From assembly GCA_031267675.1 (NCBI GenBank), contig JAIRYT010000083.1, positions 1 to 64,000 on the forward strand: a DNA stretch of 64,000 nt, read 5' to 3'. Position 1 is the first letter of the stretch. Each line of letters opens with the position of its first letter. The notes beneath the pieces were generated by a model. The model made no database searches. It was not told the DNA's origin and was given only the letters and a program-made list of their open reading frames with translations. The stretch is from Treponema sp. GTDB lineage: Bacteria > Spirochaetota > Spirochaetia > Treponematales > Breznakiellaceae. Below, piece by piece: positions 1 through 4,189 of this stretch. The translations under genes were made by a program, and so were the position numbers.

Positions 1-301
1 CTTGGGTGTACTCTCTTCGTTCTCTCATGATTCCTCTCCTTGGGTTTATCACGAGCTTAACCTACTGTCCATCGCTCCGGGGGAGGTCCATCCCTTTGTG
101 CTTTGCCGAAAGCGCGAAGACACAAATACGAAAAAGCATGATGAAGAGATTAATGACCGGCATACGAAATAATAGCCCGAAAACCGGTAGCCAAAAAGCG
201 CCGGAAACGGAAGAGAGAAGAGGATTTAACCGCGATGTCGAAGAAGTCGAATACGTTTAAGAGCAAATAAAGGCAACAGTCAGCCGGGGAAAAGCGTGGG
301 G

Positions 302-360
302 GTGCCAGAAAAACAGTATGGGAGCGCGCCATAGCGCGTCCGCATACTGTTTGGCGGCAC
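302..360. repeat. Long nested inverted repeat (hairpin)
   Basis: Three nested complementary segments are read directly: GTGCC (302-306) with GGCAC (356-360), AAACAGTATG (311-320) with CATACTGTTT (343-352), and an inner CGCGC/GCGCG pair around CATA. Together they would fold into a hairpin of about 59 nt. No T-tract follows on either strand, so it is not a classic intrinsic terminator. Confidence 0.6.
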
Positions 361-404
361 ACCAACTACAGCGCGCGAGCCGGCGAGTGCGGCATACCGG
401 TATA

Positions 405-459
405 TGTGACACGGTGTGGGCCCCGAAAATGTCACAGTGTAAAAAAAACCGCGGGGCCC
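405..459 (+). ncRNA. Possible H-type pseudoknot
   Basis: TGTGACA (405-411) is complementary to TGTCACA (430-436). GGGCCCCG (418-425), which lies in that loop, is complementary to CGGGGCCC (452-459). The order stem1-5', stem2-5', stem1-3', stem2-3' is that of an H-type pseudoknot, with an A-rich 15-nt last loop (437-451). Perfect 7-bp and 8-bp stems are seen; an RNA function is inference. It does not match tmRNA, RNase P or SRP RNA signatures that I know. Confidence 0.35.
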
Positions 460-751
460 TGCGACCGGGGCGGCGCATTGCCGGTAATTGCCGCGGGAAC
501 AGCCTTAAAAAATGTTGCCACAAGGCGGGGAGCGCGGGCCCTCCGGTCCGATTTATGGTCTCCAAAACCAATGTATAAACGACTTACGCCGTTATTGTAT
601 TACATAAGCAGCCAACCGCGTTAAACGAAATAATTAGAGATATCAAGGGCCCTGAGGCTTTCTTGGCAGCGGTAACATTTTTCGGTGCCCACGTTGTGTT
701 ACGGCAGTTGGTATGTCGCGTCCCCGCCGGGTGTACCTCCGGACCGGCTCG

Positions 752-799
752 CAACTATGCGCAGCATAGTTGGCGTAGATTGGGTTTTAACCCAATCTA
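752..799. repeat. Two back-to-back palindromes
   Basis: A 9-bp inverted repeat with a GCA loop (752-760 with 764-772) is followed 3 bp later by an 11-bp inverted repeat with a 2-bp centre (776-786 with 789-799). They lie 65-110 bp upstream of the metG -10 box. They could be paired operators or tandem RNA hairpins; the sequence alone does not decide. Confidence 0.6.
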
Positions 800-864
800 A
801 CCTGTTCCTGCGGTTGGTTGACGGAACCGCGCAGGCGTAATGGACGCGCGTCCGTCCGGCATGA

Positions 865-875: not shown

Positions 876-3134
876 ATGAAGCAGCGACTGATAACCTCGG
901 CCCTTCCCTATGTTAATAACGTTCCTCATCTGGGAAACCTGATCCAGGTTTTAAGCGCGGATGTTTTTGCCCGCTTTTGCCGGCTTAAGGGGTATCCTAC
1001 GCTCTATATCTGCGGCACGGACGAATACGGCACCGCCACCGAAACGCGGGCGGCGGAAGAAGGGATACACCCCCGTGAACTTTGCGAACGCTATTACAGA
1101 ATACACGCGGGAATCTATTCCTGGTTTAATATCGCCTTTGATAAATTCGGGCGTACATCGACAGAAATACAAACCGAAGTTACCCAGCATCTTTTTAAAA
1201 AACTTGAAGAAAACGGCTATATCCGGGAACGTACCATTGAACAGCTTTACTGTCCTGTCTGCGGGCGGTTTCTCGCGGACCGGTATGTGCGGGGAACCTG
1301 CCCCCACTGTAACTACGGGGAAGCGCGGGGCGATCAGTGTGAATCATGCGGCAAACTTCTTGACCCGACGGAATTAAAAGACAGCCGCTGCGCGTCATGC
1401 GGGACCAAGCCCGATTTGCGCGAAACAAAACATCTGTATATTGATCTTCCCGCGCTTAAAGACAAACTGGAAGCGTGGATTAAGGATGTCTCGGTCAGGG
1501 GCGAATGGGCGAATAACGCGGTACAAATGACGGCGGCCTGGATACGGGACGGCCTTCACGAGCGGGCCATCACCAGGGACCTTAAATGGGGAATTCCTGT
1601 TCCCCGTGAGGGATACGAAAACAAGGTTTTCTATGTATGGTTTGACGCGCCCATCGGATATATTTCGATTACCGGTACGCTGGCGCAGGACCGGGGTACG
1701 GACTGGAAGAGTTTTGTCGATTCCTGGTGGAGGAATCCGGACAATACGGAGCTTTTTCAATTTATCGGCAAAGATAATATTCCCTTTCATACGGTAATTT
1801 TTCCTTCGACCCTTCTTGGTTCCGGCGAAAAATGGACAATGCTGCACCACATGTCCAGTACCGAATATCTAAATTATGAAGGCGGAAAATTTTCCAAATC
1901 AAAGGGAGTAGGCGTTTTTGGCACCGATATTATGGAAACCCGTATTCCCGCCGATGTATGGCGCTTCTATATTTTTTATAACCGCCCCGAAAGATCCGAC
2001 GCCCTTTTTTCGTGGAAAGATTTCCAGGAAAAGGTAAACAGCGAGCTTATTGGAAACCTGGGAAACCTGGTAAACCGCACCCTGGCGTTTGTAACCCGTT
2101 ATTATGACGGAAAAATCCCCGATATAAATGACGCGAATGGGGAAGGCGAAACCGGTTTTTGGAACACTGTGCGCGGCTATGAAAAACAAATTATTGACAA
2201 ACTTGAATGGGCCGAATTACGGGACGCGTTTCATCTTTTGTTTGAACTTTCATCGTTTGCCAATAAAACATTCCAGGACGCGGAGCCCTGGAAATTCCGC
2301 ACCGAAGATCCGCCCAAAGCGGCGGCGGCAATCAGGAATCTTTGCTATGTGGTACGCGACATCGGAATACTGGCGGAGCCATTTCTTCCCCAGACCGCTT
2401 CCCGCATATTGGGTTTTCTTGGGCTTGCCGCGCAGTCCGGCGTAAACGAAAAGGCCGGTACCGGCAATTATGAACTGCTTAGCAAAGCGCGGGGAATTGA
2501 AACAATACGCTGCGAAGTGCTTTTTACCAGGCTGGAAGATGAAACAATCGCCGCGTTGCGTGAACGTTATTCGGGAAGCCAAAAAGACCGTGAAAAAAGC
2601 GGCCAACCCAACAAAAGCGTTCCCGGGCAGACAGAAGCGCTGTTTGAAAATACCCTTGATTTGCGGGTGGCAAAAATAACGGCAATTGAACGGCACCCCA
2701 ATGCGGAAAAGCTCTATATTGAAACACTGGAAATTCTGGCGCCCGAAGAACGCGTCATTGTCTCGGGGCTGGTTCCGTTTTATACGGAAGAAGAATTGCT
2801 GGGAAAACATATCATTGTCGCCTATAACCTTAAAGCGGCAAAACTGCGCGGCGTGGTAAGCAGGGGCATGCTTCTTGCCGCTTCCGCGACTGTTGACGGA
2901 AACGAAATAGTCGAAGTGCTTGACGCGGGAAACGTTCCAGCCGGCACGCGGGTGGTCCTTGAGGGAGCAAGCGCCGAAGCCGCGCGGGCGAAAACAGACG
3001 AAATTACCATAGATCAGTTTTTCGCGGCGCCGCTTGTGGTAAATGATTACACCGTGTATGCCGGCGAAAAAGCGCTTACGCTTAACGGAACGCCGCTTAA
3101 AACGACGCGGATAAAAAAAGGCGAAGTGCATTAG
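876..3134 (+). CDS. metG: Methionyl-tRNA synthetase
   Basis: Cytosolic enzyme that charges initiator and elongator tRNA-Met with methionine using ATP. The 752-residue protein has the class I HIGH motif as HLGN (residues 18-21) and the KMSKS loop as KFSKS (338-342). Cys-rich zinc knuckles around residues 125-180 contain four CxxC pairs, the four-Cys-pair arrangement of the longer MetG type. A C-terminal EMAP/Trbp111-like tRNA-binding domain starts near residue 592 (LDLRVAKI) and mediates dimerisation in relatives. The ATG has no Shine-Dalgarno but sits 5 nt after an extended -10 box, so a leaderless message is likely. Its stop codon overlaps the GTG start of the next gene by one base, so the two are co-transcribed. 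Confidence 0.97.
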   Translation: MKQRLITSALPYVNNVPHLGNLIQVLSADVFARFCRLKGYPTLYICGTDEYGTATETRAAEEGIHPRELCERYYRIHAGIYSWFNIAFDKFGRTSTEIQTEVTQHLFKKLEENGYIRERTIEQLYCPVCGRFLADRYVRGTCPHCNYGEARGDQCESCGKLLDPTELKDSRCASCGTKPDLRETKHLYIDLPALKDKLEAWIKDVSVRGEWANNAVQMTAAWIRDGLHERAITRDLKWGIPVPREGYENKVFYVWFDAPIGYISITGTLAQDRGTDWKSFVDSWWRNPDNTELFQFIGKDNIPFHTVIFPSTLLGSGEKWTMLHHMSSTEYLNYEGGKFSKSKGVGVFGTDIMETRIPADVWRFYIFYNRPERSDALFSWKDFQEKVNSELIGNLGNLVNRTLAFVTRYYDGKIPDINDANGEGETGFWNTVRGYEKQIIDKLEWAELRDAFHLLFELSSFANKTFQDAEPWKFRTEDPPKAAAAIRNLCYVVRDIGILAEPFLPQTASRILGFLGLAAQSGVNEKAGTGNYELLSKARGIETIRCEVLFTRLEDETIAALRERYSGSQKDREKSGQPNKSVPGQTEALFENTLDLRVAKITAIERHPNAEKLYIETLEILAPEERVIVSGLVPFYTEEELLGKHIIVAYNLKAAKLRGVVSRGMLLAASATVDGNEIVEVLDAGNVPAGTRVVLEGASAEAARAKTDEITIDQFFAAPLVVNDYTVYAGEKALTLNGTPLKTTRIKKGEVH

Positions 3135-4189
3135 TGGGTCTTCTTTTAAAACCGGCTGGGCTTGATATCTGCGCAAATGCCGATACCTTTCTTCAGTCGG
3201 AGCTGTGGGGCCGCTTTAAGGAACGTTTCGGGTGGAAGGCGTTTGCCTTTTCCTGCGGGTATGAAAACGAGGAACAGCCGCTTTTGGTCTTGTTTCGCCG
3301 TCTTAACGCGCTGTTTTCGTTTGCCTATGTTCCCTGGGGTCCGCGGCTTCCAGCCGGAGTGAACGGAGCGGAGGTTCAGAACTATCTGTTACAGGTAGCC
3401 GTTGAACTGCGTAAACAGCTTCCCCCGGCAACGGCGTTTATCCGCTTTGATCCGCCGTGGTACACGGCCAATACTGCGGAACTTTCCGCGCCCTTTACGC
3501 GGTCGGCGGCAGACGTGCAGCCCCCCGACTCGGTTCTGATCGATCTTGGCGCCGGTGAAGAAGAAATCCTCGGCGGCATGAAAAGCAAATGGCGTTACAA
3601 TATAGGGCTTGCCGCAAAAAAAGGCGTCCAGGTACGCTGCGCCGAAGCGTCTTCGCCGCAGTTTGAAAAAGATTTGGAAAGCTACTACCGGCTTTACCGC
3701 GAAACCGCGCAGCGGGACGGCATCTCGATTCACGGCGTTGAATATTACCGCGGACTTTTTGACCTTGCAGGCGGTACAGAAGCCGCCCGGCTGCGGCTGT
3801 ATATGGCTTCGCACGAAGGCGAAGATATCGCGGGCGTAATAACCATTTTTAGAAAACGCGAGGCGGTGTATTTATACGGCGCTTCAAGCAGTCGCAAGCG
3901 AAATCTTATGGCGCCGTACGCCCTGCAGTGGCAGGCAATGCGCGACGCGAAAAAATCGCTCTGCGCGTACTATGATCTTTTTGGCATACCGCCTGTTTCT
4001 CCCGAAGAAGATCCCCGTCATCCCATGGCGGGATTATACCGCTTTAAAACCGGTTTTGGGGGAACCATAATTCATCGTCCGGGAAGCTGGAATTACCGCT
4101 GCCGCCCCCTGCTGACGGCGCTCTTTTCCGCCGCCGAAGGCATGCGAAAAAAAATTTGGACTATCGGGAAACGGAACCGCCGGACCTAA
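3134..4189 (+). CDS. FemAB-type peptidoglycan aminoacyltransferase
   Basis: Predicted to transfer an amino acid from aminoacyl-tRNA to the stem peptide of lipid II, the activity of the FemABX family (GNAT-like fold). At 351 aa it has typical FemX length. The diagnostic segment MKSKWRYNIGLAAKKGV (about residues 149-165) is the family's substrate-loop signature. The GTG start overlaps the metG stop as TAGTG. Spirochaete peptidoglycan carries ornithine with an attached glycine, so Gly-tRNA-dependent transfer is an attractive but unproven role. Its last codons and stop lie inside a 34-bp direct repeat copied 131 bp downstream. The family call is firm; substrate and donor are inferred. Confidence 0.8.
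   Translation: MGLLLKPAGLDICANADTFLQSELWGRFKERFGWKAFAFSCGYENEEQPLLVLFRRLNALFSFAYVPWGPRLPAGVNGAEVQNYLLQVAVELRKQLPPATAFIRFDPPWYTANTAELSAPFTRSAADVQPPDSVLIDLGAGEEEILGGMKSKWRYNIGLAAKKGVQVRCAEASSPQFEKDLESYYRLYRETAQRDGISIHGVEYYRGLFDLAGGTEAARLRLYMASHEGEDIAGVITIFRKREAVYLYGASSSRKRNLMAPYALQWQAMRDAKKSLCAYYDLFGIPPVSPEEDPRHPMAGLYRFKTGFGGTIIHRPGSWNYRCRPLLTALFSAAEGMRKKIWTIGKRNRRT

Follow-up and report, generated by a model that had tools for sequence, protein, structure and literature searches.

The window, i.e. the whole stretch of DNA analysed here (64,000 nucleotides of a Treponema sp. contig), carries near its start, upstream of metG, a hairpin followed by two interlocking stems, which an earlier note had presented as a single element. 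This hairpin-and-pseudoknot is one copy of a folded repeat of gut spirochaetes, ∼105 bp long, which we call U; the interlocking stems do lie within U, while the hairpin at 302-360 is a separate piece. The features of the locus are given below (G, L and C numbers designate genomes, loci and contigs); scores refer to R1, a covariance model built from 32 copies of U, with the copy at 362-465 of the window among them.

93..300, + strand: left module, common, wholly or partly, to contigs C94, C59, C74 and C19
302..360, + strand: hairpin just 5′ of U (z −7.3)
362..465, + strand: U, full-length folded repeat unit (R1 102.5 bits, E 2.4e-29, model positions 1-106)
372..391, + strand: helix A hairpin of U (372-376/387-391; loop pairs 379-384 and 380-383)
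405..436, + strand: P1 stem, the first stem of the earlier note (405-411/430-436, exact here)
418..459, + strand: P2 long-range stem (counted core 419-423/454-458, exact here)
461..545, + strand: middle module, common to contigs C94, C62, C44 and C59
546..641, + strand: middle module, common to contigs C94, C62, C44 and C6
641..721, − strand: second, inverted U without its 5′ part (nhmmer match 645-721, profile positions 25-103)
716..832, + strand: terminal module T, two perfect hairpins, a repeat of the own genome

Both interlocking stems are exact: TGTGACA at 405-411 pairs with TGTCACA at 430-436, and GGGCCCCG at 418-425 with CGGGGCCC at 452-459. Stems of such lengths interlocked by chance in 46 of 20,000 mononucleotide shuffles of window 301-470, a procedure that does not preserve dinucleotides. 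The hairpin at 302-360 is strong (−35.4 kcal/mol; the z of −7.3 comes from 200 dinucleotide shuffles). The stability of the pseudoknot region in comparison with dinucleotide shuffles was not unusual (z −0.1 for 363-460 and −0.6 for 405-459). Since this energy is ordinary, the support for the fold comes from covariation, and RNA folding energy alone was discarded as uninformative evidence for U. In sequence, helix A has a conserved GA at 377-378 and at 385-386, and a GTGG at 416-419 runs into the 5′ strand of P2 (GTRG in most of the family).

The region 93-832 is a mosaic of modules that are common to other contigs in varying order. The earlier note had missed this mosaic nature, as well as the inverted, truncated U at 641-721 (R1 57.9 bits, with a long insert reaching 773); after these two copies the next match to R1 in the window has E 0.15. 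As contigs such as C59 and C6 begin inside modules, copy numbers counted in the draft are a lower bound. For module T we observed 19 matches, some of them partial, in the own genome and none in the 117 other family genomes (118 searched); in L018 a paired change is visible in this module, GGGTTTTAACCC to GGGCTTTAGCCC. The place of the 302-360 hairpin is taken in L010 by a similar hairpin and in L013 by a hairpin of unrelated sequence between similar flanks, as judged by eye. Window 1-91 is an IS-like end, common to contig C21 and, inverted, to the far end of the own contig.

A copy-number search of the own assembly, one of the checks proposed earlier, gave 25 matches to window 250-520, itself included. 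With nhmmer we observed 29 matches to U in 14 stretches of the own genome, arranged as singles, inverted pairs and head-to-tail arrays, and 15 matches in 12 loci of relatives, with two copies counted twice. Tandem arrays in L018 and L021 contain five and three units, respectively, with a period of 102-109 bp. Among 195 genomes of the family, 91 have R1 matches (E ≤ 1e-4), representing 38 of 56 genera, the own included. In the order-wide search 71 of 390 genomes matched U, all 71 in the same family as above, the share of the 390 outside this family not being stated. The per-genome counts are lower bounds, as 20 candidates were scored in the family search and 10 in the order search.

An exact pattern of U was also scanned against a collection of 84,980 species, and all 68 matched stretches (68/68) are titled Treponema sp., Spirochaetaceae or Spirochaetia. 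This pattern recognises 63 of 333 fetched loci, thus many true copies are missed; moreover, G165 has the exact pattern yet is absent from the 68 matches, hence the scan of the collection is incomplete. We saw one viral contig with U, which over the initial 4,446 bases is identical to a part of the single-contig genome G165. BLASTN searches of the element and of the tandem array against phages and plasmids gave no match.

Of 115 eligible copies, 84 are closest to another copy from the same genome, while shuffled genome labels gave a mean of 6.9 and a maximum of 18 (1000 shuffles). That nearest copies mostly share a genome points to repeated lineage-specific bursts.

To characterize the fold we started from 250 model matches; filters on length (98-112) and similarity left 178, of which 140, dissimilar to each other and drawn from 49 genomes, went into an alignment that took no account of structure. 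The aligned units are 102-111 bp long. Compensatory changes, which the earlier note had suggested looking for with a covariance model in related genomes, are present in helix A and in P2. In helix A, a GCGCG hairpin, 98.9% of cells are paired, in its loop pairs 97.1%, and changes on both sides occur at all seven of these pairs. In P2 (GGGCC/GGCCC) 86.9% of cells are paired, with both-side changes at all five counted pairs. P1 is paired in 65.5% of cells, and four of its six pairs changed on both sides, the best being 409-432 (columns 61-88).

A covariation scan made without guidance by the fold placed helix A at ranks 1-4 (columns 13-33, 14-32, 19-24 and 15-31). The fifth rank went to columns 70-76, which are not a pair, and the sixth to the P2 pair 73-115; strong couplings outside of pairs are thus present. 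The covariation score of the fold was 0.322 against a shuffle mean of 0.155 (none of 500 shuffles reached it, though such shuffles ignore relatedness), and it was at most 0.122 when the fold was slid along the alignment. We conclude that the fold is real and that P2 (418-425/452-459) holds family-wide. Of the H-type pseudoknot proposed for the window, the long-range stem stands for the whole family; its partner P1 holds in part of the copies, so a strict pseudoknot is not universal.

The earlier note could name no RNA class for the element, and neither can we: no Rfam family reached the gathering score on the window stretch or on U in 18 further loci. The scan of these 18 loci did return an SRP RNA on the opposite strand, which shares 9 bases with the end of one U. 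Looser Rfam searches (10 and 12 loci) gave one sub-threshold overlap with U, BjrC68 with 21.2 bits against a cut-off of 39.

Open frames are no more common in U than in shuffles (2.22 versus 2.16 per copy), and a role as coding sequence was rejected for this reason; frame −2 is open in 86 of the 140 copies with 62 expected.

In a survey of genes that covered copies other than 18 of the own genome and 26 near locus ends, we saw 33 frames running through U, many of them without domain support. Fourteen in-gene copies are in frame, nine sense and five antisense. A Pfam domain spans U in DnaE (G136), IleRS (G206), MurG (G211), Fmt (G197) and a methyltransferase (G206). A HisA-HisI fusion (G202) has Pfam domains on both sides with U in the linker. 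In a DegT aminotransferase (G003) the domain is found in two stretches around U, with the best one starting after it; in a FemAB protein (G210) the domain match ends at U, and the remainder aligns to a homologue in the window. There is in-frame U also in a TilS-like protein (G001; the label comes from PF01171) and in three frames for which a phage-like nature was inferred and which have no Pfam match (two in G128, one in G142); the G142 frame is homologous to one of those in G128, with U at the same place. In G193 an in-frame U occupies a second ileS site, and a contig of G202 starts inside U at this site.

The inserts amount to 33 residues in DnaE, 44 in FemAB and 58 in IleRS, the last including a low-complexity flank. 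On comparison with solved structures, the best aligned stretch of E. coli DnaE begins just after U, whereas Thermus DnaE aligns across U with a long linker of its own; the alignments for IleRS, MurG and Fmt are broken at or within U. The DnaE linker that holds U in G136 takes other insertions elsewhere (L404, L408, L430). A PPSAGxxPATPP-like peptide is a second in-frame insert in IleRS of several species (L274-L303), and it is found beside U in the HisA-HisI fusion (L097). In G131 (L105 1501-1607) U separates a glutamine amidotransferase gene from a HisA-like gene.

Several of the insertion sites are empty in relatives. All 28 other species of the genus that were aligned lack U at the ileS site of G206; 39 genomes were searched, five had no match, four with a match were not fetched, and of the 30 rows fetched one off-frame row (L283) was dropped. 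The dnaE insert is lacking in every one of the other family members aligned (29 of 29); one of them is a sister species whose flank is 93% identical. The R1 search of dnaE in these 29 found no U (58 genomes were searched, 52 matched and 30 loci were aligned). Other length variants exist near the dnaE site (L404, L406-L408, L410, L411 and L430, among others). The FemAB homologue in the window, at 3134-4189, has no U insert.

An IS3-type transposase gene of the own genome presents a further case, with U inside the gene on contigs C62 and C7 and the gene whole on C74. In C62 the insertion is out of frame, and in C7 it brings a stop. Two IS3-type copies have U at the same place of the transposase gene (L012 2740-2838 and L014 2779-2880); U may have spread inside an IS. 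By eye, neither a target-site duplication nor a general terminal repeat was seen at the ileS, dnaE, FemAB and IS sites.

All insertions seen in essential genes keep the frame. As U is not enriched in open frames, this in-frame survival looks like selection on the host gene.

Dispersed copies, amplification within genomes, insertions with empty sites, tandem arrays and a covarying fold were all observed. Copies dispersed, inserted into genes and lacking at the same sites in relatives are what one would see for a mobile repeat, and this part of the earlier note has held. The other suggestion, an independent RNA, is not supported: copies lie within genes and in both orientations relative to them. 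Nor was any link of U with metG found. A riboswitch or cis-regulator of metG would keep a constant place upstream of one gene class, whereas neighbour genes differ from copy to copy, and copies are also situated in gene interiors and at 3′-ends.

We consider it likely that U is a non-autonomous mobile repeat of ∼105 bp, recognised in the form of a folded single strand, and that it was amplified separately in many lineages within a single spirochaete family. Its insertions, in both orientations, would fall between genes, at their 3′-ends or within them. Where an essential gene is hit, in-frame insertions would survive as extra loops; in a dispensable IS transposase gene the frame may be broken. 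Once in place, a copy could be repeated in tandem (the 102-109 bp period), carried along inside an IS, or incorporated into composites like that preceding metG. A mobilising enzyme would read the fold and act in trans. The GA/GA mismatches of helix A, conserved on one strand, seem easier to reconcile with a folded strand than with a two-fold protein site. In this reading the fold would act as single-stranded DNA rather than RNA; it could equally act as RNA.

One alternative is that U is a cis-acting RNA, an intercistronic or 3′-UTR stabiliser or terminator, selected site by site and rarely copied. Fifteen frames of at least 200 codons run into U and stop within it (the frame in L200 looks U-derived), and of the ten such frames scanned nine have a Pfam domain, mostly complete; incomplete ones are Fumble in L187 (to 291 of 334) and Pox_D5 in L177 (to 66 of 86). 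One permease gene is followed by U in three species from two genera, as two units in G203, three in G201 and one in G165, and changes between these copies preserve helix A and P2, as judged by eye. Conservation at the permease site suggests that some copies are retained for use. In G165 one array lies beside the SRP RNA and another after the 5S rRNA; the former, L174 2290-2802, consists of five units of 102-105 bp and ends at the 3′-end of the SRP RNA gene. However, other copies are within coding sequence, orientation is mixed among frames ending in U (5 sense, 10 antisense) as it is inside genes, and no neighbour gene class is common to the 285 frames of the loci examined. We regard selection of this kind as an unlikely general explanation; it is compatible with a mobile origin, and its odds overlap with those of the mobile reading.

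Returning to U as a mobile repeat, the nature of the mobiliser has to be considered. In the loci examined no gene recurs beside U apart from the IS3-type element, orthologous loci and U-derived frames. One could think of a REP/BIME-type repeat moved by RAYT (Y1) transposases: the conserved GTRG runs into P2 much as GTAG tags REPs, U occurs in both orientations and in arrays as REP/BIME do, and REPs, too, can be intragenic (PMC3733652). Y1_Tnp is present in 10 of 16 genomes tested. Still, it has no match in G001 and G121, which carry U (these are drafts, and a gene could have been missed), while G023 has 28 matches and no match to U. Of 30 fetched Y1 loci one has U, on one side only. In the own genome the two Y1 matches are fragmentary, lie at contig ends and have no U in their loci, and IS200/Y1 was rejected as the mobiliser on this ground. 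In addition, U with its ∼105 bp and a P2 loop of 26-30 bases differs from REPs of 20-40 bp, and GTRG is internal rather than at the end. A Y1-driven origin is, thus, improbable.

We would give similarly little credence to U as a bacterial SINE-like selfish RNA, with a fold read by reverse-transcribing or ligating machinery and copied back, essential genes included, with no DNA transposase involved.

Least probable is that U represents a conventional MITE derived from a DDE insertion sequence: U is small and dispersed, IS3-type transposase frames appear in three own-genome loci with U (rve_3 in L012; two with U at the same place) and the composite borders the IS-like end at window 1-91, but the IS copy on C74 has no U at the site, hence U was inserted into the IS and not derived from it; further, the conserved part of U is internal structure and not termini, and the IS3-type transposase does not recur beside U in the relatives' loci examined. 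Integron attC sites were set aside, as the end motifs of such sites were not seen by eye.

With a mobile repeat as the preferred reading, we regard U as a new, unusually folded family within a known kind of element. The best-known cases of folded elements lying in frame in essential genes come from Rickettsia and Wolbachia; some REPs elsewhere are intragenic. PMC2229807 and PMC10969869 describe Rickettsia palindromic elements (RPE) as folded, mobile elements of 105-146 bp, situated between genes and in frame in conserved protein genes. U resembles them in being in frame in conserved protein genes (e.g. dnaE, ileS, murG, fmt, DegT and FemAB) and in its mobility, with ileS and dnaE sites empty in relatives and an empty copy of the own IS. 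Yet RPE belong to a different phylum and, in this comparison of descriptions rather than sequences, form one long stem-loop with terminal inverted repeats of about 12 bp, whereas U combines helix A with the long-range, crossing P2. No general terminal repeats were seen by eye in the alignment of U.

REP and BIME (PMC3733652) share with U the small size, the folding, both orientations, arrays, a partly intragenic location and GTRG next to a stem; U is longer, has a richer fold and shows no Y1 link in the genomes tested. The same paper reports CGTC repeats from Spirochaetes, and these repeats may partly overlap with U. In open-licence PMC literature no description of U was found in titles and abstract openings among the matches listed. 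BOX-type repeats form composites in which the central unit varies in number. U is similar in this respect; the difference is that U is family-wide, while module T is restricted to the own genome among the 118 searched.

U is a distinct family with a richer covarying fold and with the same in-gene behaviour across a spirochaete family. For several insertions the empty sites are resolved, and a frame-breaking insertion in a dispensable gene is available as a contrast. Such a family offers a testable system for the movement of small folded elements that have no obvious transposase, and for the way essential proteins absorb foreign loops.

The Rfam family TD-2 (RF03162) also represents a structured Treponema-type element, found together with U on stretches of G128 and G165. 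The TD-2 model does not match U, and the identity of the two was rejected. The TD-2 elements on stretches with U are at 862-956 and 1471-1566 of L136 and at 4563-4661 of L120.
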